A stretch of 64,000 bases of DNA from Dokdonia sp. Dokd-P16. GTDB taxonomy: Bacteria; Bacteroidota; Bacteroidia; Flavobacteriales; Flavobacteriaceae. A program made the translations under genes and the position numbers. The DNA is taken from contig NZ_CP029151.1 in NCBI RefSeq assembly GCF_003095655.1, positions 929,001 through 993,000 on the forward strand. Reading direction: 5' to 3'. The notes under the pieces are model-generated. The model was not told the DNA's origin. It made no database searches and saw only the letters and a program-made list of their open reading frames with translations. Positions 3,403-62,257 of this stretch are shown here, piece after piece (position 1 is the first letter of the stretch; the number at the start of each line of letters is the position of its first letter).

Positions 3403-4068
3403 ATGAGCTTTTTAAAACCTTCTCGAGTACCTTCCATAGTTACCTGGTTGTATCCAAGTTGGTATTTGTGGAGCAAACCAAAAGGTAAGAAAACTATCTA
3501 TCTCACCTTTGACGACGGACCTATTCCTGAGGTGACCGATTTTGTTTTGGATACGCTTTCGCGAAAGCGTGACAACCCTATACCCGCCACTTTTTTTTGC
3601 ATAGGAGATAATGTGCGTAAGCATCCAGAGGTGTTTAAAAGAATCCTTGCCGAAGGTCACTCCATAGGGAATCACACCTACAATCACTTACAGGGATGGA
3701 AAACGGATAACGAGACGTATTTAAAAAACACACAGCTCGCCGAACTTGAGATGAGCAAGCATATAGAAGGTAATCCTGACGCATTAACAAGTACGCTATT
3801 TAGACCACCATATGGAAAAGTAAAGCGTAAGCAGGCATCTGCATTGCGCAAGATGGGATATAAAATCGTAATGTATCGTATAGTTGCTTATGACTGGGAG
3901 TCAAGTATTACTCCGGAAGCATGTCTACATAACGTAATTGATACTGCTCAGGATGGAGATATTATCGTTTTTCACGACAGTGTAAAAGCATTTAAGAATT
4001 TACAATATGCGCTTCCTAAAGCTATTGAGTATTTTGAAAAAGCTGGATTTAGCTTTGGGAAATTGTAG
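3403..4068 (+). CDS. Polysaccharide deacetylase (NodB homology domain)
   Basis: A 221-residue protein of the CE4 family, which removes N- or O-acetyl groups from cell-wall or capsule sugars. Visible motifs in order: T-F-D-D-G-P with the catalytic base Asp and a metal Asp (residues 35-40); H-S-I-G-N-H-T-Y-N-H with the metal histidines; R-P-P-Y-G; Y-D-W; and F-H-D-S near the C-terminus with the catalytic His. There is no convincing signal peptide, so it may act in the cytoplasm or be anchored weakly by its N-terminal aromatic stretch. The ATG follows the terC stop with no gap. Residues T-L-S-R-K-R near position 50 are encoded by one copy of the 20-bp palindromic repeat, inserted between the first and second motifs. 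Confidence 0.9.
   Translation: MSFLKPSRVPSIVTWLYPSWYLWSKPKGKKTIYLTFDDGPIPEVTDFVLDTLSRKRDNPIPATFFCIGDNVRKHPEVFKRILAEGHSIGNHTYNHLQGWKTDNETYLKNTQLAELEMSKHIEGNPDALTSTLFRPPYGKVKRKQASALRKMGYKIVMYRIVAYDWESSITPEACLHNVIDTAQDGDIIVFHDSVKAFKNLQYALPKAIEYFEKAGFSFGKL
3552..3570. repeat. Palindromic repeat copy 1, inside the deacetylase gene
   Basis: Nineteen of the 20 consensus bases TACGCTTTCGCGAAAGCGTA are present. The frame used reads T-L-S-R-K-R, in a loop between conserved motifs of the deacetylase. Confidence 0.95.
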
Positions 4069-4073
4069 TGTTA

Positions 4074-4373
4074 TTATACTGAGTACTCTTCCATAATACC
4101 AATAATGGTATTTGCATCTAGCGCTCCGCTTTGACGCCATATCATCTCCCCGTTTTTATAAATAATTAGGGTAGGTAACGCTTTAATGCGCAATGCTTCG
4201 GCAAGCTTGTTATTCTTATCTACATCTATCTTAATCACTTTTCCCTTATCGCCTATTGCGGCAGCTACTTCCCTAAGAACAGGATGCATTGCCATTGAAT
4301 TTTCATTCCAGTCTGTATAAAAGTCTAACAGTATCGGAATATTTACGTCTATAAGTTCTCCAAATTTTGACAT
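4074..4373 (-). CDS. Thioredoxin-fold protein lacking the CxxC active site
   Basis: A 99-residue single-domain thioredoxin fold. The beta strand I-L-L-D-F-Y-T-D-W leads directly into N-E-N-S-M where thioredoxins have C-G-P-C, so both redox cysteines are missing and the protein contains no cysteine at all. The cis-proline loop L-P-T-L is kept (residues 66-69), as is K-I-D-V-D-K-N. It cannot be a dithiol oxidoreductase. From memory, similar cysteine-free proteins occur across Flavobacteriia, suggesting a structural or chaperone-like role rather than decay, but I could not check this. It ends 5 bp from the convergent deacetylase and follows the metallophosphoesterase gene with a 63-bp gap on the same strand. 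Confidence 0.85.
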   Translation of the reverse strand: MSKFGELIDVNIPILLDFYTDWNENSMAMHPVLREVAAAIGDKGKVIKIDVDKNNKLAEALRIKALPTLIIYKNGEMIWRQSGALDANTIIGIMEEYSV

Positions 4374-4436
4374 ACCTATGGATTTTATTAATCAATTAAG
4401 GATTACGTGCTTAGTAAAGATAGCACTTTATTGGTA

Positions 4437-5663
4437 TTATGCGTTTGCACTAGCTCTTTTCAACTCTATAACAGTTATCTCAGGCCAAATCCCTACCCTT
4501 CCAGGAAAAGCAAGATACCCAAAACCACGGTTTACATTTATATACTGCTTTGCATCTTCATAGATACCTGCCCAGTATTTATAGCGCCACTTTACAGGAC
4601 TCCATTTAAACCAACCTGGTATCTCAATACCAAATTGCATGCCATGCGTGTGACCACTAAGCGTTAAGTGAAAATGCTCTGGGTGATCCTTTACCTCAAA
4701 CTCCCAGTGAGAAGGGTCATGACTCATTAGTACTTTAAACTCCTCCTTATCAAGCCCGTTTATTGCTTTATTGAGATCTCCCGCTTTTTTAAATCCGCCT
4801 TCACCCCAGTTTTCTACTCCTACAATTGCAAGACGCTCTCCATCTCTTTCAATAAAGTGGTGCTCATTAAGTAATAGCTTAAAGTCCATCTCTTTTTGGA
4901 TTTCTTTGAGCCTATTGAGGTTATCTATTTTTGCCTGAGGCGTAGGCCACTCTACATAATCGCCATAGTCATGATTTCCTAAAACAGAAAACTTCCCATC
5001 TTTTGCACGCAAACGAGCGAAAGAATCTTGCCATTCATCCATCTCGCTCGCTTCATTATTTACCATATCACCAGTAAATAAGATAGCATCACTAGCCTGC
5101 TCATTAATAAGATCTATAGCATAGTTTACCTTCTCCTTATTATCAAAGCTTCCACTATGTATGTCACTTATTTGTGTAATCTTATAACCATCAAAGGCAG
5201 CTGGAAGGTCATCAAACGTGAGCGTATACTTAAGGACTTTAAAATTATAACGCCCTTTTATAACTCCGTATAAAATAGATGCAAATGGTATTGCTGCTAG
5301 CCCTAACGCAATCTGACTTACAAATTTACGGCGAGAGGGAATTGCTTTACCTTCTGAGCTTGCCGATATTTTATGCACACCACCACGTATAAGTCTAAAG
5401 ATATCTTCTCCAAACATGGTTGCAATAATGATTAGCTTACAAACAATGAGAATGATAAATGAGACCACAAAGAATTGTGTTAAAGCACTCATGTTACGTC
5501 GTCCTCCAGTAGAGAATTGATAGATCATCCCTCCTATTATAAATAAGGTAATAAGAAAGTATAAAATGGTTCCCCAGCGGCCTTTTACAAGAAATCTAAA
5601 TGCTTGGTAGGCATATATATCTAGGGCAATCACAAATAGGATAATAAAAATAAATCTGAGCAC
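4437..5663 (-). CDS. Membrane-anchored metallophosphoesterase (YaeI-like)
   Basis: 408 residues. The N-terminal 135 residues hold about four hydrophobic segments (near 1-22, 33-55, 63-85 and 112-135). A calcineurin-like phosphoesterase domain follows with all the metal motifs: I-S-D-I-H-S-G, F-T-G-D-M-V-N, V-L-G-N-H-D-Y, L-M-S-H-D-P and S-G-H-T-H-G. This is the arrangement of the YaeI/YkuE family, which acts on phosphorylated lipids or UDP-linked lipid A precursors at the membrane; the substrate here is not known. It lies downstream of manA on the same strand with 110 bp between them, a gap that contains a copy of the palindromic repeat. Confidence 0.9.
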   Translation of the reverse strand: MLRFIFIILFVIALDIYAYQAFRFLVKGRWGTILYFLITLFIIGGMIYQFSTGGRRNMSALTQFFVVSFIILIVCKLIIIATMFGEDIFRLIRGGVHKISASSEGKAIPSRRKFVSQIALGLAAIPFASILYGVIKGRYNFKVLKYTLTFDDLPAAFDGYKITQISDIHSGSFDNKEKVNYAIDLINEQASDAILFTGDMVNNEASEMDEWQDSFARLRAKDGKFSVLGNHDYGDYVEWPTPQAKIDNLNRLKEIQKEMDFKLLLNEHHFIERDGERLAIVGVENWGEGGFKKAGDLNKAINGLDKEEFKVLMSHDPSHWEFEVKDHPEHFHLTLSGHTHGMQFGIEIPGWFKWSPVKWRYKYWAGIYEDAKQYINVNRGFGYLAFPGRVGIWPEITVIELKRASANA

Positions 5664-5749
5664 AGTTTATGAATTTAGGTAAAAATATAGGGTGAACTAT
5701 TAGTAGAGTTCCGTTTCACGTTTCTTTAACTATAAAGGTGTTATTTACA

Positions 5750-5769
5750 TACGCTTTCGCGAAAGCGTA
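5750..5769. repeat. Palindromic repeat copy 2, intergenic
   Basis: A perfect 20-base copy, located 4 bp after the end of manA (which is on the minus strand) and about 90 bp before the metallophosphoesterase start. There is no T-run consistent with a terminator. Confidence 0.97.
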
Positions 5770-5773
5770 CCTA

Positions 5774-6745: not shown

Positions 6746-6818
6746 AGTCTAAATAGGTCGCAAATATACAGCTTACCTTAAATTTTTCTATCACTTCTAT
6801 TTCTTGATTCGCTATCTG

Positions 6819-7791: not shown

Positions 7792-8233
7792 TGGTAATAT
7801 CGCTTTCGCGAAAGCGTACTACATCACCTTTTTTCTTACTCAATAATAATTGCCCCATAGGCGATGCAAGTGCTATCGCATAATAAGGTCTTCCTTCTAT
7901 TTTTATTTCTCCTGCCGAAACCGAGATAAAGAAACGATTTGTAGAGGTATGAACTACACTGCCTAGGCGCACGTAGTCGCTCTTTACTTTGATATCAACT
8001 TTAGATAAGGCATCTTCTATCTTCCCTATTTCTTTAAGTTGCTCGCCCGCTTGCTCGCGATCAATCTGTAGCATCGCTCGTCCTGTCTCATGCTTATCTC
8101 CCGCCGAACTTTTAGTCTCGTCTTCTAGCGATTCCATGATATCTGCAATCACAGTTTCTACCTTATTGCGACGGTTTACAATCCACTGTGTGCATTTTGT
8201 AAAGAGTTCTAATTTTATTTCTTGATGATTCAT
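7775..8233 (-). CDS. GreA/GreB-like transcription elongation factor family protein
   Basis: 152 residues. The N-terminal 75 residues look like an antiparallel coiled coil with acidic residues near the tip (S-A-G-D-K-H-E-T-G-R). The C-terminal half resembles the FKBP-like Gre domain, with I-A-L-A-S-P-M-G-Q-L-L-L-S-K-K-K-G-D. Gre factors enter the RNA polymerase secondary channel and stimulate transcript cleavage; whether this divergent member does so is unknown. Database names for such flavobacterial proteins may be misleading. The residues R-F-R-E-S close to the C-terminus come from a palindromic repeat, and the last codons overlap the convergent ABC gene. Confidence 0.72.
   Translation of the reverse strand: MNHQEIKLELFTKCTQWIVNRRNKVETVIADIMESLEDETKSSAGDKHETGRAMLQIDREQAGEQLKEIGKIEDALSKVDIKVKSDYVRLGSVVHTSTNRFFISVSAGEIKIEGRPYYAIALASPMGQLLLSKKKGDVVRFRESDITITSVY
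7801..7818. repeat. Palindromic repeat copy 3, inside the Gre-like gene
   Basis: Eighteen consensus bases. It is read on the minus strand as V-R-F-R-E-S-D, within the last ten or so codons of the gene and 10 bp beyond the convergent ABC gene stop. Confidence 0.95.
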
Positions 8234-8316: not shown

Positions 8317-9429
8317 TTAAATTAAATCTGCGAGGTTTTTACCTATGGTACTTCCTATGGCAACTCCCATCCCTCCCAGGCGCACGCCGCAATAAGTATG
8401 CTTAGACAATTTTTTAACGACAGGCTTTTTTTGAACACCCACACCCATGATACCACTCCATCTGTGATCTATAGTATAAGGAGTATTTGGTAAAATTACC
8501 TCAGCAAGCAGTCGCTCTAGCTCATTTTGAATAAGTACTGTTTGAGACATCTCCATCGTTTCCTCTCCTTGCATATCTAGATTTCTCCCTCCCCCTAAAA
8601 GAATTCTATCATTAATATTTCTAAAGTAATAATATCCTTTATCGAGATGAAATGTACCTTTCACTTTGAGTTCTGGAATAGGATGTGTGATTAACACCTG
8701 CGCTCTCGCTGGTTTTACTTCGCTAAGTCCTAGCGCGCTTGCAAAGCCATTTGTAGCAATGAAGAGCTTTTTTGTGATGAATGCATTATGAGCCGTTACA
8801 ACTTTCACACTCTCGGCTCCTTCTCTATATGAGTTTACAGTCATGCCGTTTAATATGAGTATTCCTTTGGCGTGTGCGAGTTTGAGAAGTGCACTCATCA
8901 TCATTCCCGTATCTATCTGGCCTTCGCAATTATTAAAAATCACCTTATTTTCTATACCATCAAAACCAAATGCATCATCCTGCAGCGTGTAAACATCTTT
9001 ATTAAAAACTGGAAATAACAACTTATTTATACGGGATAGATTATCAACACATTCTTCATACAACACTTTATCATTTGAGGTAAAAAGCTCGTAACCTCCA
9101 TGTTCTTGATAATCTATTTCTTGATCACCCAGCATGCTTCTCAACAGTTTCAAACCTTCCACACGTTGTTTTACTAGTGAGACCATCTCTTCTTCTGAGT
9201 GTGTTTTGAGATCTTCTAGTAATTCTGAGATACTTCCAAAACATGCAAAACCAGCATTTTTTGTGCTCGCACCATTAGGCAACAATCCCTTTTCTAAGAT
9301 TACTATTTTTGAGTTGGCATCTTTTTCGCGTAAGCGTATTGCACACAATAATCCCACGATACCGCTACCTACAATGGTATAGTCTAAATTATTAAACCAC
9401 GATTCTCGCTCCCAAAAACTTAGATTCAT
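8317..9429 (-). CDS. FAD-dependent oxidoreductase of the DAO/DadA type
   Basis: 370 residues. A Rossmann dinucleotide-binding motif, V-G-S-G-I-V-G, sits at about residues 21-27, followed by I-V-I-L-E-K-G ending the second strand. A conserved glycine-rich C-terminal segment (G-V-R-L-G-G-M-G-V-A-I-G) would close over the flavin. D-H-R-W-S-G-I-M-G is typical of the D-amino-acid oxidase superfamily, whose members oxidise secondary or primary amines of amino acids. The substrate cannot be read from sequence. It is a cytoplasmic, single-gene unit divergent from the MORN-repeat gene. Residues R-L-R-E-K between the first helix and second strand may be a decayed copy of the palindromic repeat. Confidence 0.87.
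   Translation of the reverse strand: MNLSFWERESWFNNLDYTIVGSGIVGLLCAIRLREKDANSKIVILEKGLLPNGASTKNAGFACFGSISELLEDLKTHSEEEMVSLVKQRVEGLKLLRSMLGDQEIDYQEHGGYELFTSNDKVLYEECVDNLSRINKLLFPVFNKDVYTLQDDAFGFDGIENKVIFNNCEGQIDTGMMMSALLKLAHAKGILILNGMTVNSYREGAESVKVVTAHNAFITKKLFIATNGFASALGLSEVKPARAQVLITHPIPELKVKGTFHLDKGYYYFRNINDRILLGGGRNLDMQGEETMEMSQTVLIQNELERLLAEVILPNTPYTIDHRWSGIMGVGVQKKPVVKKLSKHTYCGVRLGGMGVAIGSTIGKNLADLI
9322..9338. repeat. Degenerate palindromic repeat copy 4, inside the FAD oxidoreductase gene
   Basis: TTTTCGCGTAAGCGTA-like sequence with about three differences from the consensus. It is read as I-R-L-R-E-K, matching the third reading frame of the element. It could be chance. Confidence 0.5.
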
Positions 9430-9979: not shown

Positions 9980-9983
9980 CGTT

Positions 9984-10694
9984 ATGACTCCCCTTATTAA
10001 AGTAATAATACCAGCTTACAACGAGCAAGACTCCATTGGTCACGTGCTACGAGACATTCCTCACACGGTGAGTGAAGTTATTGTAGTAAGCAATGCATCT
10101 ACAGATAATACAGAACAAGTTGCTAGAGATAATGGTGCTACTGTATTAAGAGAAGAACGCAAAGGATATGGATACGCCTGCCTCAAGGGCATGGAATACA
10201 TTGCAACCACGGGTATTGATGACCCTACCAAACGCCCAGATATCGTTGTCTTTTTAGACGGAGATTATAGTGACTACCCAGAAGAGCTAACTAAGATAGT
10301 CGCTCCTATTATCAATGGAGATTACGACATGGTTATAGGTGCTAGAGACAAACGCTTTCGCGAAAGCGGATCAATGACCACTCCACAGATATTTGGAAAC
10401 TGGCTTGCAACTACATTAATGACGCTATTTTTTGGAGCAAACTTCACAGATTTGGGACCTTTTAGAGCTATGAAATATGATAGCTTACTAGCTTTACAGA
10501 TGGAAGATAAAACCTATGGGTGGACGGTAGAGATGCAACTCAAGGTTTTAAAGAAGAAGATGAATTATATAGAAGTCCCAGTAACTTATCGCAATCGCAT
10601 AGGTGTTTCTAAAGTCTCTGGTACCGTAAAAGGTGCAGTAATGGCAGGAGTTAAAATACTAGGATGGATTTTTAAATACAGTTTTAAGAAATGA
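9984..10694 (+). CDS. Family 2 glycosyltransferase (polyprenyl-phosphate glycosyltransferase type)
   Basis: 236 residues using the ATG at 9984. The longer frame from 9939 would overlap the previous gene by 41 bp and lacks family support, while this start falls directly before V-I-I-P-A-Y-N-E-Q. Motifs are the GT-A nucleotide site (S-N-A-S-T-D-N-T), the D-G-D-Y-S-D metal-binding region, and the C-terminal P-V-T-Y-R-N-R-I-G-V-S-K-V-S-G typical of DPM1-like enzymes. These load a sugar from a nucleotide donor onto a polyprenyl phosphate on the inner face of the membrane. Residues R-F-R-E-S come from a palindromic repeat. The stop overlaps the next start (ATGA). Confidence 0.88.
   Translation: MTPLIKVIIPAYNEQDSIGHVLRDIPHTVSEVIVVSNASTDNTEQVARDNGATVLREERKGYGYACLKGMEYIATTGIDDPTKRPDIVVFLDGDYSDYPEELTKIVAPIINGDYDMVIGARDKRFRESGSMTTPQIFGNWLATTLMTLFFGANFTDLGPFRAMKYDSLLALQMEDKTYGWTVEMQLKVLKKKMNYIEVPVTYRNRIGVSKVSGTVKGAVMAGVKILGWIFKYSFKK
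10352..10368. repeat. Palindromic repeat copy 5, inside the GT2 gene
   Basis: Seventeen consensus bases. Read as K-R-F-R-E-S-G in a region between the catalytic core and the C-terminal motif. Confidence 0.93.
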
Positions 10695-12181: not shown

Positions 12182-13614
12182 TAGAACGCCTTTGGAAATA
12201 TAATAAAACTCCTATCGCACTAGCGATTGTTTCCTTAGTTACCTACTACCTCTTTGCTTTTCATCTAGAAAGAGCTAACACCGCACTCCTATTAAGTCTA
12301 TACAGTATACTTTTTGCTTGCTTTTACTTTATCGTTAGTAAAGGCAAAAATGACTTCTCTTTACTTCTTTTTCTAGCAGTAGCGCTAAGGCTCGTTTTTA
12401 TACCCGTTATACCAAATCTCTCTCAAGATTTTTATCGCTTTATATGGGATGGGCGGATGCTCGTTCAAGGTTTTAATCCGTATTTAACAACTCCTCAAAG
12501 CTATATAGAAGCTGGCAATCTCCAGATTGTAGCGCATGCAAAACAGCTCTATGAGGGAATGGGAGCACTTAACGGAAGTCACTTTACAAATTACCCACCC
12601 GTAAACCAACTTATATTTGCAATCGCAGGATTATTCTCTGGCAATAGCATCATTGGTGCCGCCATCGTTTTTAGAATTACCATCATTCTTGCAGACATTG
12701 GGATTATTATTTATGGTAAGAAATTGTTACAAAAGTTAGGCTTACCTATTCACAACATCTTCTGGTACGGGCTCAATCCCTTTATCATTATTGAGATGAC
12801 AGGCAATCTGCATTTTGAGTCTGTCATGTTGTTTTTTGTCGTCTTATCCTTGTATTTACTGGCCCAAGGTAAGTGGATAATAAGTGCTGTGATGATAGCA
12901 TTATCTATATCTACTAAGTTATTACCACTACTCTTTCTGCCACTTTTCATGCAATACTTCTTAACTCGTGGTGATAGAAAAACAACTCACTTTAGAAGCT
13001 CCTACCCATGGAAAGTCCGCTTTCGCGAAATAACAAAAAACCTTCCTCGCCTCGTTTATTTCTATTTGATTGTGATTGGAGTAGTCATATTGACCTTCTT
13101 ACCATTTCTCACAAATGAGTTCGCCGAAAACTTTGGGGCATCCATTGCGTTATGGTTTAAGAAATTTGAATTTAATGCCAGTATTTATTACATCATCAGA
13201 TATGTAGGTTATCAAACCATAGGCTGGAACATTATTGCAGATGTAGGACCTTTACTGCCTAAGATTGTATTAGGCTTTCTAATAGTTATAGCCTTCTTTA
13301 GAAACAACAGATCATTACAAGCTACCATTACCGCCATACTCATTGGGATTTCCTTTTACTTTTTAATGTCTACCACTGTTCACCCTTGGTATGTAGCTAC
13401 GCCTCTACTTTTGTGTGTATTCACTCGCTATCGTTTTCCACTGGTTTGGAGTGCTACCGTGATGCTAAGTTACAGTGCGTATGGCGCAAATGGTTTTAAT
13501 GAAAATTTATGGCTCGTAGCTATAGAGTACATTATTGTAATCGTATTTTTTATCTGGGAAGTTTACAAACCATCTAAAATTATTGTAATGACAAAGACCG
13601 CCATTGAGGGCTAA
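12178..13614 (+). CDS. GT-C family polytopic glycosyltransferase (mannosyltransferase-like)
   Basis: 478 residues with 11-13 hydrophobic helices. A first periplasmic loop motif, Q-D-F-Y-R-F-I-W-D-G-R, resembles the catalytic D-x-Y-R-Y-x-W-x-G-R of GT87/MptB-like lipid-sugar-dependent mannosyltransferases. The start codon is GTG, overlapping the upstream TGA by 4 bp; no better ATG lies nearby. It would take a polyprenyl-phosphate sugar, plausibly made by the GT2 at 9984, and transfer it on the periplasmic side; the acceptor is unknown. The peptide V-R-F-R-E-I is a partial palindromic repeat in a cytoplasmic loop. The gene converges on the ArnT-like gene with a single base between the stops. 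Confidence 0.83.
   Translation: MIERLWKYNKTPIALAIVSLVTYYLFAFHLERANTALLLSLYSILFACFYFIVSKGKNDFSLLLFLAVALRLVFIPVIPNLSQDFYRFIWDGRMLVQGFNPYLTTPQSYIEAGNLQIVAHAKQLYEGMGALNGSHFTNYPPVNQLIFAIAGLFSGNSIIGAAIVFRITIILADIGIIIYGKKLLQKLGLPIHNIFWYGLNPFIIIEMTGNLHFESVMLFFVVLSLYLLAQGKWIISAVMIALSISTKLLPLLFLPLFMQYFLTRGDRKTTHFRSSYPWKVRFREITKNLPRLVYFYLIVIGVVILTFLPFLTNEFAENFGASIALWFKKFEFNASIYYIIRYVGYQTIGWNIIADVGPLLPKIVLGFLIVIAFFRNNRSLQATITAILIGISFYFLMSTTVHPWYVATPLLLCVFTRYRFPLVWSATVMLSYSAYGANGFNENLWLVAIEYIIVIVFFIWEVYKPSKIIVMTKTAIEG
13018..13030. repeat. Partial palindromic repeat copy 6, inside the GT-C gene
   Basis: Only the left half and centre (CGCTTTCGCGAAA) remain. Read as V-R-F-R-E-I, in the frame that gives R-F-R-E-S in full copies. 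Confidence 0.75.
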
Positions 13615-13615: not shown

Positions 13616-15247
13616 CTATTTTCCCACCTTAATCATCTCATACACTTTTCCAGACTTTCTATCTTTATAAGCTCTACTATCTGTAGCGTTGTAATTAAAA
13701 TCAAAGTCTTGAACAAACGTTGCTTGATAGCCCTTAAATTTTTCTGAGAGAACCGCTTCACAATCTGAACATAACAGTAAGTGGAACCTCTCATCTAGCA
13801 CCACAGTCTCTTCAGAGTCAAGAATAACCACTTCCCTTTCAGCTCCCCAGAACACTTCAGGAGCGCCCATTTCAAAACTGTACAGTGGTGTGCTACTTTC
13901 GAGAACCTCATCGTTAAATACACTGTAATGATCATTAAACAGGTTGTTTTTAAGAACTGATAGACTTCCTATGGCCGTACAAATAACAGCGAGGACAATA
14001 AGCAGGAAAACATGGTATATATTTTTATGCATTAAAGCACGAATAATATATAGTGCAACTACAAGAACTACCATAAAAGCAATTACGGCAACAACATTTA
14101 CAGCTATCGAGTGTGATATAGCTAGGTAAATAAATGCAATAGGAGCAGCTATAAATATTAAAAGCAATAAACCCACATTGAAATACACGGGAACAATCTC
14201 TTTTCTACTTTTCAATTCTTTAAAACGTTTTACGAGATACGTGATATAAAAACCAACATTCATGGCTAGTGGTATAAGCACAGGCATAAGGTATCGAGAT
14301 TTTTTCTCTGGAATAACAGAAAGTAGTATGACAGCGATAATGGTCCACAAAAATGTAAAACGATATGCTTTTCTATTAGAAACCCTAGTCTTCAAATAAG
14401 GATACAATAGACTTATAAAGGCTGGAATTGTCCACAATCCGCTTTGTACAAAGAAGCTCCAGTAATAATAAAAAGGCCTCACATTATAACTCGTCCAGTT
14501 TCCTGTTTCTTTGGAAGCTATCGCTGCAAAAGTTTCCGGATCTATAGCACGTACATAACCGTACCAACTAAAACCTAGCAATAATCCTCCTAGCAAAACA
14601 AGTGTTAATGGCAACCACTTTCTCCTTCCAGTTTCCCTTCTATAGACTACGAGATAAGCAATCAGAAATGGCAAGAACAGTACGTATAAAGAAACAGGAC
14701 CCTTACTCAATATAGAAGCTCCTAGACATATAGCAGCGATGAGCCAAGTCGATATATTCCCGCGTGATGTATCTTCACTCAATCCCTTAAAAATGCAATA
14801 AATTGCCGTGAGCATAAATGCATGTGCATATATATCCCATGGTGCTTCAAAAACTATAAGAATAACATATAATGAAGTTATACTTACCAGTGCATTAATA
14901 AGACTATTGCGTTTAGTAAGAGTCAGCTTTCGCGAAAGCGTATATATCATACTCCCCAGCAACATCACCATTAGCACTGCAGGAAAACGCATTGCCCAGA
15001 CGCTATTTATACCAAAAATAGCTCCTGAAATTGCCGATAGCCAAGTGGGCAAAGGAGGTTTTTCATAACGTGGCTCACCATTCATGGTAGTGAGTATCCA
15101 GTTACCATCAGTAAGCATTTCTCGTGCTGTCACAAAGTTGCGAGCTTCCATGATGGTTACTTCTAGCACATCAAGAAAAGGCAATAATAAAACTCCAACC
15201 ACGATAATGATTGTGAAAATAGGTCGCTTTTCTATGAGTGTGATCAA
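13616..15247 (-). CDS. ArnT-like glycosyltransferase (GT83, PMT superfamily)
   Basis: 543 residues with about 12 transmembrane helices. The N-terminal loop has the family signature: E-A-R-N-F-V-T-A-R-E-M (catalytic Asp/Glu region), G-N-W-I-L-T-T-M-N-G and R-Y-E-K-P-P-L-P-T-W. ArnT enzymes transfer aminoarabinose or other sugars from undecaprenyl phosphate to lipid A; Bacteroidota members have unknown sugars and acceptors. The C-terminal 140 residues form a soluble periplasmic domain. It is the last gene of a minus-strand trio with an LpxB-N-type membrane protein (4-bp overlap) and a GT2. T-L-S-R-K-L near residue 100 derives from a palindromic repeat. Confidence 0.88.
   Translation of the reverse strand: MITLIEKRPIFTIIIVVGVLLLPFLDVLEVTIMEARNFVTAREMLTDGNWILTTMNGEPRYEKPPLPTWLSAISGAIFGINSVWAMRFPAVLMVMLLGSMIYTLSRKLTLTKRNSLINALVSITSLYVILIVFEAPWDIYAHAFMLTAIYCIFKGLSEDTSRGNISTWLIAAICLGASILSKGPVSLYVLFLPFLIAYLVVYRRETGRRKWLPLTLVLLGGLLLGFSWYGYVRAIDPETFAAIASKETGNWTSYNVRPFYYYWSFFVQSGLWTIPAFISLLYPYLKTRVSNRKAYRFTFLWTIIAVILLSVIPEKKSRYLMPVLIPLAMNVGFYITYLVKRFKELKSRKEIVPVYFNVGLLLLIFIAAPIAFIYLAISHSIAVNVVAVIAFMVVLVVALYIIRALMHKNIYHVFLLIVLAVICTAIGSLSVLKNNLFNDHYSVFNDEVLESSTPLYSFEMGAPEVFWGAEREVVILDSEETVVLDERFHLLLCSDCEAVLSEKFKGYQATFVQDFDFNYNATDSRAYKDRKSGKVYEMIKVGK
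14925..14942. repeat. Palindromic repeat copy 7, inside the ArnT-like gene
   Basis: Eighteen bases with one change (AGCTTT in place of CGCTTT). Read on the minus strand as Y-T-L-S-R-K-L in a loop between helices. Confidence 0.92.
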
Positions 15248-17473: not shown

Positions 17474-17795
17474 TACATTATTGTTTAAGCTGCAAAGGTA
17501 AGATTTACTCCGTACTCTTTTACTACCTAGTGAGCATAATAATAAGTTACCCGCTTTCGCGAAAATTTGATCTCATTACAAAGAAGCTTTTATCAACTAA
17601 AACAAGCCTCACCTCCTACTCTCATTGAATTCAAAACCAAACAAACACCTGGATCAACACTGACAAATAAAACACTAAAGCTGCTTATTAAAGACCCTCG
17701 CTACGAGCTTAGACACGCTCCATTTTCAAAAAGTAGCCTACTGGCACAGAACTTGATTCCCACAACCTGTTCAACATTTTAAAACTTTATACATT
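17474..17795. other. 322-bp intergenic region between divergent genes
   Basis: It separates the RsuA-like gene (minus) from exbD (plus). It contains one partial palindromic repeat at 17552-17564. An open frame at 17567-17782 has no recognisable domain and is not called. No perfect TAnnTTTG box was found immediately before exbD. Confidence 0.6.
17552..17564. repeat. Partial palindromic repeat copy 8, intergenic
   Basis: CGCTTTCGCGAAA followed by ATTTG. The right arm is lost. Confidence 0.75.
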
Positions 17796-19502: not shown

Positions 19503-19522
19503 TACGCTTTCGCGAAAGCGTA
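19503..19522. repeat. Palindromic repeat copy 9, intergenic
   Basis: Perfect 20-base copy between the divergent nitrilase and radical SAM genes, about 60 bp upstream of the nitrilase start. Confidence 0.97.
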
Positions 19523-21679: not shown

Positions 21680-21699
21680 TATGCTTTCGCGAAAGCGTA
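21680..21699. repeat. Palindromic repeat copy 10, intergenic
   Basis: Nineteen of 20 bases (TATGC in the left arm). It lies 10 bp after the DUF4130 stop, between convergent genes. Confidence 0.95.
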
Positions 21700-22179: not shown

Positions 22180-22220
22180 GTATCCTGTTTTTAATGATAT
22201 AAAAATACATATTCAAGATG

Positions 22221-22228
22221 TACCTTTG
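22221..22228 (+). promoter_or_regulatory. -7 box giving a probably leaderless dxs transcript
   Basis: TACCTTTG matches TAnnTTTG and ends 4 bp before the ATG at 22233. Transcription from this box would start at or just after that codon, so either the mRNA is leaderless or the true start differs. Confidence 0.5.
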
Positions 22229-22232
22229 TAAC

Positions 22233-28240: not shown

Positions 28241-28264
28241 TTTACGCTTTCGCGAAAGCGTAAA
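28241..28264. repeat. Palindromic repeat copy 12, intergenic
   Basis: Perfect copy extended to 24 bp (TTTACGC...GCGTAAA). It lies just upstream of the phased repeat at 28297-28357. Confidence 0.97.
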
Positions 28265-32659: not shown

Positions 32660-32679
32660 TACGCTTTCGAGAAAGCGTT
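32660..32679. repeat. Palindromic repeat copy 13, intergenic variant
   Basis: TACGCTTTCGAGAAAGCGTT: the central CGCG is CGAG and the last base differs. It lies 1 bp before the end of the minus-strand MORN-type gene. Confidence 0.88.
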
Positions 32680-35680: not shown

Positions 35681-35700
35681 TACGCTTTCGCGAAAGCGTA
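35681..35700. repeat. Palindromic repeat copy 14, intergenic
   Basis: Perfect 20-base copy 14 bp after the transporter's terminator. Confidence 0.97.
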
Positions 35701-36280: not shown

Positions 36281-36294
36281 ATTATCTATAACTT

Positions 36295-36307
36295 TTTCGC
36301 GAAAGCG
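36295..36307. repeat. Partial palindromic repeat copy 15, intergenic
   Basis: TTTCGCGAAAGCG with the left arm lost, between the sdhB stop and its terminator. Confidence 0.75.
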
Positions 36308-36315
36308 AATATAAA

Positions 36316-39820: not shown

Positions 39821-39972
39821 CTATACAAGGAAAGCATTGCTATTATTTAGAATGATTATAAGAAAAATCGCAACTATGTTGAACACTAAAAGGTAGACAT
39901 TGCAAAAACTGCATTTTACGTTCAACATTTTCAATATTATTGAAAACTTTTAAGAGAGATTTATAAATTTTC

Positions 39973-39991
39973 ACGCTTTCGCGAAAGCGTA
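39973..39991. repeat. Palindromic repeat copy 16, intergenic
   Basis: Nineteen bases of consensus (ACGC...GCGTA), preceded by C instead of T. Confidence 0.95.
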
Positions 39992-45529: not shown

Positions 45530-45546
45530 TACGCTTTCGCCAAAGC
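45530..45546. repeat. Degenerate palindromic repeat copy 18, intergenic
   Basis: TACGCTTTCGCCAAAGC; one central change (CGCG to CGCC) and a damaged right arm. It lies 6 bp after the aminopeptidase stop. Confidence 0.85.
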
Positions 45547-45558
45547 TACCAAATAACA

Positions 45559-47690: not shown

Positions 47691-48961
47691 ATGGTACGCT
47701 TTCGCGAAAGCGTAATAGCACTCACCATTATATAAGTCACCACAGCAGGTAATAACCAACCTAAACTTACAGTGCCTAGCGGAATCATTTCCTGCAGTAC
47801 TTTCATCTGGTCACCAAAACCTACAGAGGCCCAAAAATCTGGTGCGCTAAAAAGTATGGTAGCAATTACTACTGCTCTAAATACTACTGGAGAGGTCCAC
47901 CTTCTAGGCATCGCGTTAAGTAATATTAACACGATTGTGATTGGGTAGATAAACATAAGTGCTGGTACAGCAACTATAATAATAGAATTTACATCTAGTT
48001 GTCCCATTACAACACCAAGTATAGCTCCTAGAATGGCGGTGACTGTATAAGCTACTTGCGAGTTTCCTAGAATTCCTTTTACAAAATCTGCAGTTCCTGT
48101 TACAATTCCTACAGCCGTTGTAAAGCAAGCTAAACTTACTAAAACAGCGAGCACCTTAGTACCTATAACTCCTAATGTATCTGTACTAAGAAGGTTGAGA
48201 AGTGCCGTACGATCTGTCATCTCTATACCACCACTTCTTAGAGCACCTAGATAGATAAGTCCTCCATATATTAGTAACAATCCTATACCTGCAATGATGC
48301 CCGCTCTAGTTAACAAACGTTGCTTTGCTCTACTAGAACCCTTTTTAAAACCAAGAGAAATCACAATGACTCCTCCTACAACCACTCCACCTATGGCGTC
48401 AAAAGTTTGATAACCTTCTAAGATTCCGCTAGTGAGCGTACTATCAAAAATAGATGCACGCATAGGCTCATACTCTCCAAATATCCCAATACCAATCACC
48501 AATGCCAGAATAATGAGAATGGCTGGCGTAAGATATTTACCTACAAGATCCATCATCTTAGATCTATTAAGCACAAATAACAGGACTAATCCAAAGTATA
48601 TCGTACTCCACAGCCAACTAGAAATATCAAAATAGGGAGCAATTGCCATCTCATAAGTAACAGAGGCAGTACGTGGACCTGGCAATGCGATAGAAATAGC
48701 ATAGACCACGATTGCATACAATAGTGCAAAGAGTGGTGAAACTTTATTTGCAAAATCAATCAACGTTCCTTGTAATCTTGCATGACCGTAAATTGCCAGA
48801 ATAGGCACTACCACCGCCGAAATAAGAAAACCTGCCAGCACAAATAACCAAGAGCTCCCGGCATTATAACCTAGAAAGGATGGCAAGATTAAGTTACCTG
48901 CACCGAAAAAAAGAGAAAATAAAGCAAAAGCTGTGATAAAGGTTTGTTTGGTCATTCTCAT
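47687..48961 (-). CDS. brnQ: Branched-chain amino acid carrier (LIVCS family)
   Basis: 424 residues with about 12 transmembrane helices. The N-terminal F-F-G-A-G-N-L-I-L-P-S-F-L-G motif is the LIVCS signature. It imports leucine, isoleucine and valine with sodium or protons. The stop codon overlaps the convergent ACT-domain gene by 4 bp. The final residues, T-L-S-R-K-R-T-I, are supplied by a palindromic repeat, so the element provides the C-terminus of the protein. Confidence 0.93.
   Translation of the reverse strand: MRMTKQTFITAFALFSLFFGAGNLILPSFLGYNAGSSWLFVLAGFLISAVVVPILAIYGHARLQGTLIDFANKVSPLFALLYAIVVYAISIALPGPRTASVTYEMAIAPYFDISSWLWSTIYFGLVLLFVLNRSKMMDLVGKYLTPAILIILALVIGIGIFGEYEPMRASIFDSTLTSGILEGYQTFDAIGGVVVGGVIVISLGFKKGSSRAKQRLLTRAGIIAGIGLLLIYGGLIYLGALRSGGIEMTDRTALLNLLSTDTLGVIGTKVLAVLVSLACFTTAVGIVTGTADFVKGILGNSQVAYTVTAILGAILGVVMGQLDVNSIIIVAVPALMFIYPITIVLILLNAMPRRWTSPVVFRAVVIATILFSAPDFWASVGFGDQMKVLQEMIPLGTVSLGWLLPAVVTYIMVSAITLSRKRTI
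47695..47714. repeat. Palindromic repeat copy 19, at the C-terminus of brnQ
   Basis: Perfect 20-base copy read on the minus strand as I-T-L-S-R-K-R-T, two codons before the brnQ stop and 5 bp past the convergent ACT gene. Confidence 0.97.
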
Positions 48962-48996
48962 AGGTTGCGTGATATTTGCCCTCCAATATAGAACTA

Positions 48997-49791
48997 ATGA
49001 CTATTAACCACAAAGGTGCTACCATATTTTATACAGATCAAGGAAAAGGAACACCCGTAATCTTACTACACGGATTCTTAGAAAATCACACGATGTGGGA
49101 TCATTTCCTTAGCGTTTTGTGTGAGCAATACCGCATTATCTGCATTGACTTACTAGGCCATGGATTTTCAGAGTCCGTAGGTTATGTTCATAGTATGGAA
49201 GAAATGGCTGCTGCAGTTGCTGCCGTAACAAATCAGCTAGCGCTTAAAGACATTACGATAATAGGACATTCTATGGGAGGTTATGTGGGTATTGCTTTCG
49301 CGAAAGCGTATCCAGAATTTATATCAAAAATATGCCTTCTTAACTCAACTCCAGAAGCAGATGACGAGGCTCGAAAAAAATTGAGATCACGGGCAAATGT
49401 GATGGCAAAAAAACAATATGAGCAACTTGTTAGAATGTCATTTATAAATCTTTTTGACAAAAAAGCAAGTACAAATCATACTCTCGAAATAAAGGATGCA
49501 CTTGAACAAGCACTTAACACACCTGTACAAGGATATATTGCTGCAAATTCTGGAATGAAAGATAGACCAGACAGTTCTGAGTTTTGGAAAACAACTGCTA
49601 TCACAACGGGAATGATTTTAGGAAATTCTGATTTGCTCATTGATGCTGAAATTCACGAGCAAAGCTATAAAGAGAACACAAATTTCTTTTCTATCATAGA
49701 AAGCGGACATATGTCACATATTACTAATGCTACAGAGACTATTAGTAATATACTTTACTTTCTATCTGCCTCAGGATCATCTAGCATATGA
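48997..49791 (+). CDS. Alpha/beta hydrolase
   Basis: 264 residues from the ATG at 48997; the frame opens at a TTG at 48976 that overlaps a -7-like GATATTTG and is unlikely to be translated. Motifs: oxyanion loop L-L-H-G-F-L-E-N-H (about 24-32), nucleophile elbow G-H-S-M-G-G (about 89-94), acidic residue in G-N-S-D-L-L-I-D (about 215), and catalytic His in E-S-G-H-M-S-H. Substrate not predictable. A-F-A-K-A-Y right after the nucleophile elbow helix is encoded by a palindromic repeat. Divergent from brnQ by 35 bp. Confidence 0.9.
   Translation: MTINHKGATIFYTDQGKGTPVILLHGFLENHTMWDHFLSVLCEQYRIICIDLLGHGFSESVGYVHSMEEMAAAVAAVTNQLALKDITIIGHSMGGYVGIAFAKAYPEFISKICLLNSTPEADDEARKKLRSRANVMAKKQYEQLVRMSFINLFDKKASTNHTLEIKDALEQALNTPVQGYIAANSGMKDRPDSSEFWKTTAITTGMILGNSDLLIDAEIHEQSYKENTNFFSIIESGHMSHITNATETISNILYFLSASGSSSI
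49294..49310. repeat. Palindromic repeat copy 20, inside the hydrolase gene
   Basis: Seventeen consensus bases read as I-A-F-A-K-A-Y-P. Many hydrolases of this class naturally have an A-x-x-x-P here, so this copy could be native sequence shaped to the consensus. Confidence 0.9.
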
Positions 49792-52837: not shown

Positions 52838-52890
52838 AATATCTTATTTAGATTCCTAAAAATACTTACAAAATAATTAAATGGATAAGC

Positions 52891-52907
52891 ACGCTTTCGC
52901 AAAAGCG
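52891..52907. repeat. Degenerate palindromic repeat copy 21, intergenic
   Basis: ACGCTTTCGCAAAAGCG, with one change at the centre. It sits 6 bp after the TauE gene's end and before the ThuA start, both on the minus strand. Confidence 0.85.
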
Positions 52908-52912
52908 GACTT

Positions 52913-53675: not shown

Positions 53676-55727
53676 TTAAAATTCAAGTGTGATTCCTCCA
53701 AAAACAGTGAGTCTCGGCGCAGGCTCATAAAACCTTCCTCCAAAGGCATTAATGCGCACGTTATCGGTATATTTTTGATCTAACACGTTATTTATCCCAA
53801 TGTATGGCCTCAACTTGACCTCTCTAAATAATGTCTCATAGCTTGCTCTCACATTAACGAGTTCATATCCATCTATGGTAGTCTCGTTGCTATCTTGAGC
53901 ATATTGCTCTCCTATAAAATTTGTACTTATACTTGCGCTCACACCAGTATCACCTGCATATTGCAACCCTACACTAGACATGTGCCTTGCAATTCCTGGT
54001 AAGAAGTTACCGTCAAAATTTCCATTTGGCGTTTCAAATTCATCATAGGTAAAGTCTGAGTACGTATAGGAACCCGTAGCGTTCAACCAACCATTTCCTA
54101 TGGGTAATGCTCTGTATGAAGCCTCAATCTCAATACCATGACGCTCGGTTTTTCCTGCATTTCTAAAAAACTCACGATCTGGAAATTGCGCCAACTCAAA
54201 CGGCACTAAATCATCTTTTGTGTTTATCAAAAACGCAGCGAGTTGATATTGCAACTTGCTTGCAATAGTCCCTTTTAAACCCACCTCAAAGCTAGTTGCC
54301 TTTTGCGCTTTTAGATTTTCATTGAATCCTATAGCCCCATCAGGATTTGATGATAATTCTGATAATGATGGTGTCTCAAAACTTGTTGCGACATTCATGT
54401 ATGCAGATAAAGCTTTCGCGAAAGCGTAACTAACACCAACACTAGGATTAAAAGCATTTAATATAATGCTTCCAGAATCATCTCCATTATCCAGAAAATC
54501 ATCATCTGCCGAAAGTTTATTGTAATCGAACCTCGCTCCGGCTGTAATCAATAATTTACCTAGCGAAAGGTGGTCTGTAATATAAACACCTAGGTTAGTA
54601 AATTTCTCACGCTGTCCCAGCGTTTGACTTCCCTCTTCTCCATCAAGGTTTCTAAATCTGTTTCTGCGATCATTTTGATAAGCAAAGTCGTATCCTGCGC
54701 GTATGATATTCTTATTTTTCTTGTAAGTTATGCTCGTTCCTTGCCCTATGTAATTACGTGATAAATCAACAATACCTCCAAATTCAAAAGGCAACAATCC
54801 ATTAAACTGTCGGTTGCTATAAAAAGCATAGGCATTTACAGTAATATGCTCACTCTTATTCCACGCTAGGCTAGTTCCTACTTTAAACTGCTCTATAGCC
54901 TCACCAGTTTTAAACTGCACATTTCTATCTCTCGCCTGTCGTCTATTAGCATTAACTTCCTCTAGAGTCAATCCTCCTGGATCATCTGCCTGTGGTGAGT
55001 CTGCATAATTAAGAATAGCCGTTAGAAAAGTATTCTCGCCTATTTTAAATTGCCCTTTAAAGTTGGTGTTTATTTGCTCAAAACCGCTTTGATCTCTGTA
55101 ACCATCGCTAGTCGCATAATTACCATGAAACGTATAGTTTGCATTTGCATCTCCTATGGTAGCCGTTGCTTGATAGTTTTGAAATCCAAAAGCACCTATT
55201 CCAGCTTTTACTGAGGTGCTATTTCCCGCCAGGGTGTCGAAAGATTTTGTGGTAATATCAATCACACCACCAGATGCATTCCCGTAAAGGCTAGCACTTG
55301 CTCCTTTTGTAATCTCAATACGGTCTATGATACCTAGATTAATATTATCTAATTGTCCCTGTCCATCTGGAGTAGTCTCTGGAATCCCATCTACAATAAG
55401 TTTTATACCACGTATCCCAAAACTAGATCGTGCTCCAAAACCACGAATGGATATTCGTAAATCCTGAGCAAAGTTGTTTGCATTTTGAGTAAACACACCT
55501 GGCACTTGCTGCACATACTCTTGTAATGATAATTGCTGTCTAGTGGCATCTTCCTTGCTCGTGGTAATGACGGAAACGGCTGCAGGTATTTGCTGTACGG
55601 TACTCTTAATTCTCGATGAGGAAATTACAATAGTATCAATAGTCTGGTTAGGTATAGATCCCGTCTGACTATAGGCACCATAAAAGAATGCAATCGAACA
55701 GATAAAAGAGGTGATAATATTTTTCAA
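53676..55727 (-). CDS. TonB-dependent receptor (FecA/siderophore type)
   Basis: 683 residues. Signal peptide at 1-20. There is no carboxypeptidase-like domain; a TonB-box-like I-D-T-I-V-I-S-S-S is followed by the plug (Q-E-Y-V-Q-Q-V-P-G-V-F, R-I-S-I-R-G-F-G-A-R-S, I-E-I-T-K-G-A-S-A-S-L-Y-G) and a 22-strand barrel ending G-G-I-T-L-E-F. This form is common for siderophore, heme, vitamin or metal complexes. Residues Y-A-F-A-K-A-L in a barrel strand or turn come from a palindromic repeat. It is the first gene of a probable operon with the TauE permease. Confidence 0.92.
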   Translation of the reverse strand: MKNIITSFICSIAFFYGAYSQTGSIPNQTIDTIVISSSRIKSTVQQIPAAVSVITTSKEDATRQQLSLQEYVQQVPGVFTQNANNFAQDLRISIRGFGARSSFGIRGIKLIVDGIPETTPDGQGQLDNINLGIIDRIEITKGASASLYGNASGGVIDITTKSFDTLAGNSTSVKAGIGAFGFQNYQATATIGDANANYTFHGNYATSDGYRDQSGFEQINTNFKGQFKIGENTFLTAILNYADSPQADDPGGLTLEEVNANRRQARDRNVQFKTGEAIEQFKVGTSLAWNKSEHITVNAYAFYSNRQFNGLLPFEFGGIVDLSRNYIGQGTSITYKKNKNIIRAGYDFAYQNDRRNRFRNLDGEEGSQTLGQREKFTNLGVYITDHLSLGKLLITAGARFDYNKLSADDDFLDNGDDSGSIILNAFNPSVGVSYAFAKALSAYMNVATSFETPSLSELSSNPDGAIGFNENLKAQKATSFEVGLKGTIASKLQYQLAAFLINTKDDLVPFELAQFPDREFFRNAGKTERHGIEIEASYRALPIGNGWLNATGSYTYSDFTYDEFETPNGNFDGNFLPGIARHMSSVGLQYAGDTGVSASISTNFIGEQYAQDSNETTIDGYELVNVRASYETLFREVKLRPYIGINNVLDQKYTDNVRINAFGGRFYEPAPRLTVFGGITLEF
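54411..54428. repeat. Palindromic repeat copy 22, inside the TonB receptor gene
   Basis: Seventeen of 18 bases (AGCTTT in the left arm). Read on the minus strand as S-Y-A-F-A-K-A-L-S-A-Y within the barrel. Confidence 0.92.
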
Positions 55728-58200: not shown

Positions 58201-58220
58201 TACGCTTTCGCGAAAGCGTA
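58201..58220. repeat. Palindromic repeat copy 23, intergenic
   Basis: Perfect 20-base copy 6 bp after the hydrolase stop and upstream of its terminator. Confidence 0.97.
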
Positions 58221-61394: not shown

Positions 61395-61887
61395 AGCTAT
61401 ATTGAGTATAATAATTAGAATTATGCGGATAATAAAGGTCTACTTTTTATGGGTTCAAACAACCGTTTATCTTTCAACGTTTTCAACAGGATATTCACAA
61501 TTGCCATTTTACTAGGCTTCACAAAGGTTTCATTTTCACGCTCATCTCTGTCATCAAGTCTATTTGCATATGATGACACGATTTACACAAATCTATCAAC
61601 ATTAGGGTGTGGAAAACTTAGTCAAAAAACTTCTGCCTTAAATTAGGTTTCAAGAGTCATTTCAAGTAGAAATGGCTTCGCTTTTTAGAGACACCCGCAA
61701 ATACAAAGCTTTAACTCAAGACATGTAGCATCTTCAGTTATTTTATCACCTCTAAAACTTCAAAACACCTTTAAATCTCGTTTGAATCACCTATAAGAAA
61801 TCCCTATCACACTATGCATTAGTTATATGTTAGGATTCGTGTAAAAACGAGACCTAAACCTTATATTTGCAAACTATTTATAACGAT
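61395..61887. other. 493-bp divergent intergenic region with DnaA-box-like words
   Basis: It separates nrdB (minus) from the A-type Fe-S carrier (plus). It contains TTTTCAACA (61480-61488), ATATTCACA (61491-61499), ATTTACACA (61581-61589) and, on the minus strand, TTTTCCACA (61616-61608), all within one or two bases of TTATNCACA. No gene is called; an open frame at 61449-61646 has no supporting signal. Confidence 0.45.
61862..61869 (+). promoter_or_regulatory. -7 box for the A-type Fe-S carrier gene
   Basis: TATATTTG matches TAnnTTTG and ends 18 bp before the ATG at 61888. This also argues against the in-frame TTG at 61867 as a start, because it lies within the box. Confidence 0.55.
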
Positions 61888-62217
61888 ATGATTAAAGTAG
61901 ATTCACAAGCAAAAACTAAAATCGCAAGCCTCATGCAGGAAGACGGTTTTGATGTAACTACAGACTATGTGCGCGTAGGCGTAAAAAGTGGTGGTTGCAG
62001 TGGTTTATCATACGATCTTCATTTTGACAAAACGCATCAAGAAGATGACAAAGTTTTTGAAGATAATGATGTAAAGCTAATCGTAGACAAGAAGAGCTTC
62101 CTTTATTTAATAGGTACCACATTAGAATATAGTGGCGGACTTAATGGAAAAGGATTTGTTTTTAACAATCCAAATGCACAGCGCACCTGTGGATGCGGAG
62201 AAAGCTTTTCTCTATAA
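61888..62217 (+). CDS. A-type iron-sulfur cluster carrier (IscA/SufA/HesB family)
   Basis: 109 residues from the ATG at 61888. The three ligands are present: Cys in K-S-G-G-C-S-G-L-S-Y (about 37) and C-G-C in R-T-C-G-C-G-E-S-F near the C-terminus. These proteins receive Fe-S clusters from the SUF scaffold and deliver them to apoproteins. It precedes sufB on the same strand with a 152-bp gap containing the longest palindromic repeat of the window, so it may be first in the suf operon or have partial read-through. Confidence 0.93.
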   Translation: MIKVDSQAKTKIASLMQEDGFDVTTDYVRVGVKSGGCSGLSYDLHFDKTHQEDDKVFEDNDVKLIVDKKSFLYLIGTTLEYSGGLNGKGFVFNNPNAQRTCGCGESFSL

Positions 62218-62223
62218 TAACTT

Positions 62224-62257
62224 AATTGGTTACGCTTTCGCGAAAGCGTAACCAATT
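62224..62257. repeat. Palindromic repeat copy 24, extended to a 34-bp perfect palindrome
   Basis: The 20-base core is flanked by AATTGGT on the left and ACCAATT on the right, so perfect symmetry reaches 34 bp. It lies 6 bp after the Fe-S carrier stop. The transcript would fold into a very stable hairpin that could limit read-through into sufB. Confidence 0.97.

Follow-up and report, generated by a model that had tools for sequence, protein, structure and literature searches.

A palindromic DNA word with C-poor arms, repeated hundreds of times per genome and largely fixed in place between Dokdonia species

To our knowledge, few kinds of DNA word are selected along whole chromosomes: uptake sequences, Chi, the highly iterated palindrome HIP1 and the FtsK-orienting polar sequences (KOPS). 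Here we describe a palindrome that recurs in a stretch of 64,000 nucleotides from Dokdonia sp. Dokd-P16 (contig NZ_CP029151.1, positions 929,001 to 993,000; hereafter, the window) and throughout the chromosome of 3,623,447 bases of this strain, the genome under study (G000). It is most like the DNA uptake sequences (DUS) of Neisseria and the uptake signal sequences (USS) of Pasteurellaceae. Like these, it is present in copies that number in the hundreds or thousands, both within and between genes; orthologous copies are stringently conserved in permissive surroundings, and the flanks are rich in AT or in T. A bias to the core genome may be a further parallel. Unlike DUS and USS, the Dokdonia motif is a perfect palindrome with two arms, belongs to Bacteroidota and also occurs on temperate phages and islands.

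Cyanobacterial HIP1 (GCGATCGC) is likewise a highly iterated palindrome of genes and gaps, and its function is itself still unsettled; the Dokdonia motif differs from it in length (14 to 20 bp versus 8), in its unrelated sequence and in its C-poor arms, and it is rarer per kb. Chi of RecBCD and AddAB occurs at similar density and, in Escherichia coli, on a G/T-rich strand, but Chi is short and one-way and the Dokdonia motif is a long palindrome. The parS and Noc-box sites are palindromic and protein-read; parS has a different inner spacing, and our motif departs from these ParB-family sites in its ∼800 copies and in that 13 of the 14 motif-rich genomes have no additional ParB. Repetitive extragenic palindromes (REP) with their REP-associated tyrosine transposases (RAYT), REP doublets (REPIN) and Rickettsia palindromic elements are also short palindromes in hundreds of copies, some of them in open reading frames (ORFs). 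They differ from the Dokdonia motif, which has no consistent transposase link, showed no clean insertion and holds positions largely common to species. An earlier note, made from the letters of the window, had held that the motif is none of the Rickettsia, REP or HIP1 types, and the tests below agree; they add to that single-window view the C-poor arms, the copies on phages and islands and the genus-wide range. The motif is long, stays in place and is found across a marine genus that can be cultivated, so pull-down and ordinary genetics should be able to find its reader and its role.

The composite motif and its range

The window contains 17 exact copies of the 14-mer GCTTTCGCGAAAGC, 8 of which also match the full 20-mer TACGCTTTCGCGAAAGCGTA without a mismatch. 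Seven altered sites carry one (three sites), two (three sites) or three mismatches (one site), so that matches with ≤3 mismatches number 24, against a mean of 1.87 in shuffled sequence; this recount reproduces the 17 exact and seven partial or altered sites of the earlier note. A whole-genome count, which that note had proposed as a check, found 808 exact copies of the 14-mer, ∼1 per 4.5 kb, where composition predicts 0.005 (and ∼0.0001 in 64 kb). The reversed 14-mer, itself a palindrome, has no copy in the genome. The signal thus far exceeds the window, and its excess over chance is of the genome-wide kind that marks DUS and USS.

Each copy is the centre of a composite DNA signal of ∼50 bp, made of the perfect palindrome and, 5′ of it on each strand, an arm that avoids C. 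The palindrome has TTTCGCGAAA at its centre, GC/GC outside it in 100 of 136 copies of the inner 10-mer, and often TAC..GTA. Arms of ∼16 bases, taken as bases 4 to 19 outward and read 5′ to 3′ towards the core in 100 copies of G000, prefer T and G. Their 32 bases contain on average 2.2 C, versus 5.8 at 5,000 random positions; C makes up 222 of 3,200 arm bases versus 481 of 3,000 further out, and the bias fades past about base 20. C-poor arms recur in other Dokdonia, in the other two motif-rich genera described below, on islands and on phages. The arms are no more complementary to each other than shuffled arms (0.317 versus 0.315, standard deviation 0.008) and therefore do not extend the hairpin. 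Beyond the 20-mer, the flanks have only this composition bias in common; that they vary freely yet avoid C points to a protein reading one strand or the chemistry of a groove.

Among 148 relatives searched (G000 included), 30 contain the 14-mer. All 18 Dokdonia genomes do, with 369 to 905 copies each; outside the genus, G027 has 578 and 11 others have 1 to 17. The inner 12-mer matches 86 of 329 genomes of the family but reaches hundreds only in G000, G011, G027, G335 (genus g11; 685) and G284 (genus g225; 445), with ≤21 in the remainder. Counting relatives, as had also been proposed, thus gave hundreds of copies in every Dokdonia genome and in three genomes of two other genera (445 to 685 copies of the 12-mer). 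In a phylum-wide draw, 16 of 296 genomes match, none apart from G000 more than four times. Reversed-word controls in these genome and genus searches gave 0 to 3 matches. A dxs tree of 39 rows leaves a single origin for the three motif-rich genera possible.

The motif lies in genes and gaps, as first noted in the window. With ORFs taken throughout from a simple caller rather than from annotation, 62 to 68 of 100 copies in a 464-kb sample of G000 are in ORFs, the range reflecting the caller, and 32 to 38 are in the 9 to 13% of the DNA that is noncoding, a 2.7- to 3.4-fold enrichment. Copies in genes are read as A-F-A-K in 35 of 62 cases and as L-S-R-K in 22. The 38 intergenic copies are spread over gap types (15, 11, 7 and 5) as gap length predicts (chi-square P = 0.90), which argues against a promoter or terminator role; convergent gaps hold 7 of the 38 and make up 18% of gap length, and no preference for gaps downstream of genes, such as an intrinsic terminator would show, was found.

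Of the 99 gaps that separate the first 100 copies in G000, 6 are shorter than 1 kb where 18.4 are expected, indicating that close neighbours are avoided. This is the part of the "fairly even" spacing seen in the window that held; the overall scatter (coefficient of variation, 1.07) is no more regular than random, and long copy-free stretches occur. The closest pair, 132 bp apart, lies at L001 1500-2742 (∼18.9 to 20.2 kb of G000), beside a lipoprotein-like gene with a partial tandem duplicate. Across 12 genomes of ≥99% completeness, copy number does not track genome size (rho = 0.31, P = 0.33) and copy density, a genome-level measure, falls with it (rho = −0.81), as if the copies were mostly in the shared core genome.

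Conservation in place between species

To compare orthologous sites, we aligned the 64-kb region of five genomes in 20 ordered pairs, which are not independent of one another, and counted a copy as kept if it lay within 25 bases of the aligned place. The 17 copies of G000 are kept in 16 cases in G006 (94% nucleotide identity) and in all 17 in G008 (89%); G016 (76%) keeps 12 of 13 alignable copies and G004 (75%) keeps 8 of 10. Over all pairs, the copy is kept in 258 of 291 comparisons, with one mismatch in 18, more changes in 5 and a facing gap in 10. Retention per pair is 73 to 100% of alignable copies; up to 12 of the 23 copies of one genome could not be aligned. The three one-mismatch copies of the window are exact in relatives. 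Thus, we conclude that the motif is old and largely fixed in place between Dokdonia species.

Conservation is concentrated on the word itself. The mean identity of the 14 core bases between G000 and four relatives is 0.92 to 1.00, and bases 4 to 20 from the core are less conserved than bases 21 to 80 in all four comparisons (0.65 versus 0.71, 0.58 versus 0.72, 0.82 versus 0.86 and 0.915 versus 0.920), the difference being slight in G006. In some intergenic gaps, the word persists between flanks that can be aligned only badly or cannot be aligned. Copies more conserved than their surroundings, at permissive sites, are what DUS and USS display, and lower conservation right beside the core is described for DUS in the part of PMC2397512 consulted.

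The copy in dxs, a gene whose product has its best named relatives in Dokdonia, reveals how one site arose. Of the 16 loci examined from other Dokdonia (all but G001), 15 read Y-A-F-A-K-A at this place; G027 and G335 read L-A-F-A-K-A. G013 has an altered core that still encodes the amino acids, and in G284 the site has decayed to D-Y-A-F-A. At 44 non-Dokdonia dxs loci (the best 44 by score of 73), other residues occupy the site with no insertion or deletion. The dxs copy therefore arose by point substitution, without an indel. Among 19 motif-rich genomes, 113 fourfold-degenerate dxs columns have an invariant amino acid, and the only one of them with a single codon is Ala546 of the motif, showing that the DNA is constrained and not only the peptide; for the next codons of the motif, the figures are 18, 18, 19 and 16 of 19. 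The earlier note had suggested, from the window, that the DNA itself is under selection or is bound by a protein; both the positional conservation and these frozen synonymous positions support this. Of three dxs genes with a flagged in-frame TGA, those of G027 and G335 have it just upstream of the likely start, and in that of G284 no stop was seen within the aligned part.

These data also bear on active spread, the further explanation offered in the earlier note, by which a mobile palindromic element of REP/RAYT, Rickettsia or miniature inverted-repeat (MITE) type would have been copied about. Hundreds of near-identical copies, some inside ORFs, would suit such an element, as would the comparisons in which a copy faces a gap. 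The comparison of orthologous loci that was meant to detect spread speaks otherwise: positions are largely shared across species and, at dxs, between genera, the alignment there being gap-free where extra bases against empty sites would be expected, and none of the facing gaps is a clean empty site of 14 to 20 bases (target duplications were not searched for). The proposed search for a RAYT-type transposase was equally negative in G000 and in 13 other Dokdonia with hundreds of copies: 14 of the 18 Dokdonia gave no match to Y1_Tnp (PF01797). It does occur in the other 4 and has six matches in motif-rich G027, and two fetched Y1-transposase loci, L094 (G027) and L095 (G009), hold a motif copy within their flanks.

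Copies on phages and islands

A scan of IMG/VR gave at least 120 matching stretches; many of these consist of one match in a GC-rich contig and are probably unrelated. From these, 18 records were picked for AT-rich or repeated matches. They carry 1 to 7 copies each, with 7 in 37.4 kb in G154 and 5 in 27.0 kb in G151. Four look temperate: G154 and G149, with a transposase and head and tail genes; G157, with integrase, portal and terminase; and G158, with an integrase. Among the few ORFs scanned in G151 and G152, no gene of these kinds was seen. G149 and G154 have one site in common, in the portal gene (65% amino acid identity), and at their remaining coding sites that have a homologous counterpart, the difference is one of substitution. 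The exact 18-mer occurs in only three IMG/VR stretches, suggesting that phages retain the outer bases less often. A prophage link to Dokdonia was tried through the G154 terminase and dropped, there being no match in 18 Dokdonia genomes in a search without a positive control.

Sixteen copy-clustered stretches (islands) were collected from nine motif-poor Flavobacteriaceae genomes, and 15 of them align with at least one other at ∼65 to 97% nucleotide identity. The two annotated stretches contain metal-resistance genes: a resistance-nodulation-division (RND) pump, a multicopper oxidase, an ArsP-type permease and P-type ATPases. Pieces of this metal-resistance region (L259 to L274 except L265) are common to the nine genomes. 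Homologous island sites are intact in some stretches and decayed in others; at L260:10252 and L270:2497, the motif is split by a repeat-like insert of ∼24 bp, and the homologous L268:12641 is intact. Contig C6 of G068 (L271, L272) has 12 exact copies in 40 kb, with 5 in the rest of that genome; it is either contamination from a motif-rich organism or an island at host-like density.

Decay was gauged from the ratio of exact to one-mismatch copies, which is 137:6 in other Dokdonia, 100:16 in G000, 19:5 in phages and 29:10 in 14 island stretches. Other Dokdonia are less decayed than islands (P = 0.0002). The 464 kb of G000 contain 30 two-mismatch copies besides the 100 exact and 16 one-mismatch ones. 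A first count, in 560 kb, had given 159 exact and 9 one-mismatch copies, and the low decay that it showed was softened by this larger sample of G000.

Possible roles of the motif

Taken together, the observations suggest that a protein of the cell reads the motif as a mark on its own DNA. We infer a symmetric, probably dimeric, host DNA-binding factor, through which selection or molecular drive would keep the motif. The role that we put first, tentatively and by analogy with the uptake sequences of Neisseria and Haemophilus, is a self-DNA signal for uptake, homologous recombination or both. The symmetric factor would bind the palindrome, fragments bearing the motif would be preferentially taken up or recombined, intact copies would replace decayed ones, and copies would build up at permissive sites within shared genes as well as in chromosomal passengers such as prophages and islands. 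Uptake sequences are the best-fitting known pattern because of the stringent conservation, the permissive surroundings, the possible core-genome bias and the enhancing flanks; the C-poor arms recall the AT-rich flanks that aid USS uptake according to the part of PMC7811141 at hand, and a flavobacterium, Riemerella columbina, favours its own DNA in transformation, as stated in the section of PMC7965970 seen. A fuller version is rather doubtful: a bidirectional self-DNA signal of Bacteroidota that would direct uptake, recombination or both, with the C-poor, T/G-rich arms as loading arms for a putative dimeric reader, and that temperate phages and metal-resistance islands would have acquired in the course of their evolution. 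Should the motif prove to be an uptake signal, its palindromic design would be new, and it would come from a phylum for which the literature read so far offers no more than hints of sequence-biased uptake.

Several points weigh against an uptake role. The facing gaps in 10 of 291 orthologous comparisons are irregular, all at three intergenic places, and copy-free stretches of 20 to 37 kb occur in the genome. Phage contigs G157 and G153 share four of four sites at 76 to 91% local identity, for which selection on the phage itself is a simpler account than drive by uptake, and islands in motif-poor genera carry the motif too. The decay of G000 is not clearly different from that of islands (P = 0.13) and exceeds that of other Dokdonia (P = 0.007). 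The pooled hosts do differ from islands (237:22 versus 29:10, P = 0.004), a result that splits, as G000 alone does not; upkeep by the host is thus supported by the relatives, not by G000 alone, and the G000 lineage may be losing it. We know of no uptake sequence that is a perfect palindrome. Nor did the literature searched yield data on uptake by Dokdonia. No receptor emerged, no candidate having been searched for; besides the transposase, a reader protein was sought through two families, ParB_N and the C5 methyltransferases.

The motif itself is not described in the literature searched, mainly open papers and largely at the level of titles and abstracts, and both the 20-mer and the inner 12-mer are absent from the open-access texts searched, subscription journals lying mostly outside the scope. 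The part of PMC5217627 available names no Bacteroidetes. The "highly repetitive intergenic sequences" of Dokdonia donghaensis, mentioned but left undescribed in the portion of PMC4974333 consulted, might include the motif.

The strongest competitor, though in our view unlikely, is a dedicated protein of chromosome organisation, segregation or replication that would bind the ∼800 sites, spread over the chromosome, as operators that keep its architecture; prophages and islands would acquire sites of their own, since these make DNA in the chromosome function better. A perfect palindrome suits a homodimer, the arms would complete a footprint of ∼50 bp, there is no preference for promoter or terminator gaps, and some phage contigs and islands reach host-like density. 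The mutual avoidance of copies, however, is short-range only and leaves the long copy-free stretches, and strand-biased arms would not be needed for simple wrapping. A ParB/Noc-type reader was rejected, as no distinctive paralogue emerged: all 30 genomes searched have one or two ParB_N proteins, 13 of 14 motif-rich genomes having one and G010 two, and 4 of 16 motif-poor genomes also have two.

More doubtful is a two-way hotspot of recombination or repair, or a self-mark that spares resident DNA from a nuclease: a Chi-like palindrome with a G/T-rich loading arm 5′ on each strand, which temperate phages would carry as self. The density of 1 per ∼4.5 kb and the C-poor, T/G-rich 5′ arms on both strands of hosts, islands and phages fit this account, as do phage sites that are shared in some cases and differ by substitution in others. 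Known Chi sequences, by contrast, have 5 to 8 bases and act one-way, and we know of no precedent for a palindrome of 14 to 20 bases read as a single strand. Either an architectural or a repair mark would be a new model, with phages bearing the same mark. Both stay behind an uptake or recombination signal, which remains our first choice, if a tentative one.

A HIP1-like word, made and kept by a cognate DNA methyltransferase and methyl-directed mismatch repair, is improbable. It would explain a highly iterated palindrome in genes and gaps, and 10 of 42 one-mismatch decays (five sets, without G068) are C>T at the inner CpG (G000, 2 of 16; other Dokdonia, 2 of 6; g11 and g225, 0 of 3; islands, 5 of 10; phages, 1 of 5), a decay that the HIP model allows in the part of PMC4390886 consulted. 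The commonest one-mismatch change in G000, though, is at the second core base (7 of 16) and not at the CpG. CGCG outside exact copies is alike in G000 (446 versus 551 expected) and in motif-poor relatives (1322 versus 1628 expected). The C5 type of methyltransferase (PF00145), the one type searched for, turned up in 5 of 14 motif-rich genomes and in 8 of 14 motif-poor ones. That none was found in 9 of 14 motif-rich genomes sets the motif apart from HIP1, and a C5-methylation model was rejected on this mismatch of enzyme and motif.

An RNA hairpin, acting as a transcription terminator, a processing site or a site for an RNA-binding protein, is very improbable. The core does fold (a 26-nucleotide composite gives −11.8 kcal/mol, z = −3.8, and two natural stretches give z = −2.6 and −0.9), but about two-thirds of copies are in ORFs and symmetric change occurs in only 1 of 29 two-mismatch copies; terminator, promoter and hairpin alike were rejected on the lack of context preference and of arm complementarity. 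A mobile palindrome, the least credible account of all, was rejected on the positional conservation, the substitution origin of the dxs copy and the absence of the Y1 transposase from most Dokdonia.

The sites of the window are collected in Table 1.

Table 1. Exact, partial and altered copies of the motif in the window (window positions; + and −, strand of the ORF)
Site	Position	Context and state in relatives
Exact 14-mer core (20-mer frame)	3552..3571	Inside polysaccharide deacetylase ORF 3403-4068 (+)
Exact 20-mer	5750..5769	Gap separating two − strand genes; G006 differs at one base, and G016 lacks the copy and shows an alignment gap
Exact core	7799..7818	3′ end of ORF 7775-8233 (−); weak GreA/GreB match under the family cut-off
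Partial, 3 mismatches	9319..9338	In ORF 8317-9429 (−)
Exact core	10351..10370	In glycosyltransferase ORF 9939-10694 (+)
Partial, GCTTTCGCGAAATA	13016..13035	In ORF 12178-13614 (+); identical in G006, G008 and G016; G004 not alignable
Exact core	14923..14942	In PMT-family ORF 13616-15247 (−)
Partial, GCTTTCGCGAAAAT	17550..17569	Intergenic; full core here in two relatives (L010, L011)
Exact 20-mer	19503..19522	Gap between divergent genes
Exact core	21680..21699	Gap between convergent genes; G004 lacks the copy and shows an irregular alignment gap
Exact 20-mer	23850..23869	In dxs (22218-23996 +), read Y-A-F-A-K-A; same-place core in 15 of 16 other Dokdonia examined and two g11 genomes
Exact 20-mer	28243..28262	Gap between divergent genes; retained in relatives despite poorly aligning flanks
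1 mismatch, GCTTTCGAGAAAGC	32660..32679	Core exact in G006, G008, G016 and G004
Exact 20-mer	35681..35700	Gap after PHO4-family gene
Partial, TTTTTCGCGAAAGC	36290..36309	Gap adjoining 3′ end of ORF 36316-37062 (−)
Exact core	39972..39991	Intergenic
Exact core	40698..40717	In ORF 40163-43033 (−); retained next to 24-base alignment gap in G004
1 mismatch, GCTTTCGCCAAAGC	45530..45549	Gap between convergent genes; core exact in G006 and G008
Exact 20-mer	47695..47714	3′ end of branched-chain amino acid transporter gene 47687-48961 (−)
Exact core	49291..49310	In alpha/beta-hydrolase ORF 48976-49791 (+), A-F-A-K-A frame
1 mismatch, GCTTTCGCAAAAGC	52890..52909	Intergenic; core exact in G006 and G008
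Exact core	54409..54428	In TonB-receptor ORF 53676-55727 (−)
Exact 20-mer	58201..58220	Gap between convergent genes
Exact 20-mer	62231..62250	Gap upstream of SufB/D-family gene 62370-63815

The TonB-receptor ORF begins with TTG, and a caller restricted to ATG places its start far inside the gene.

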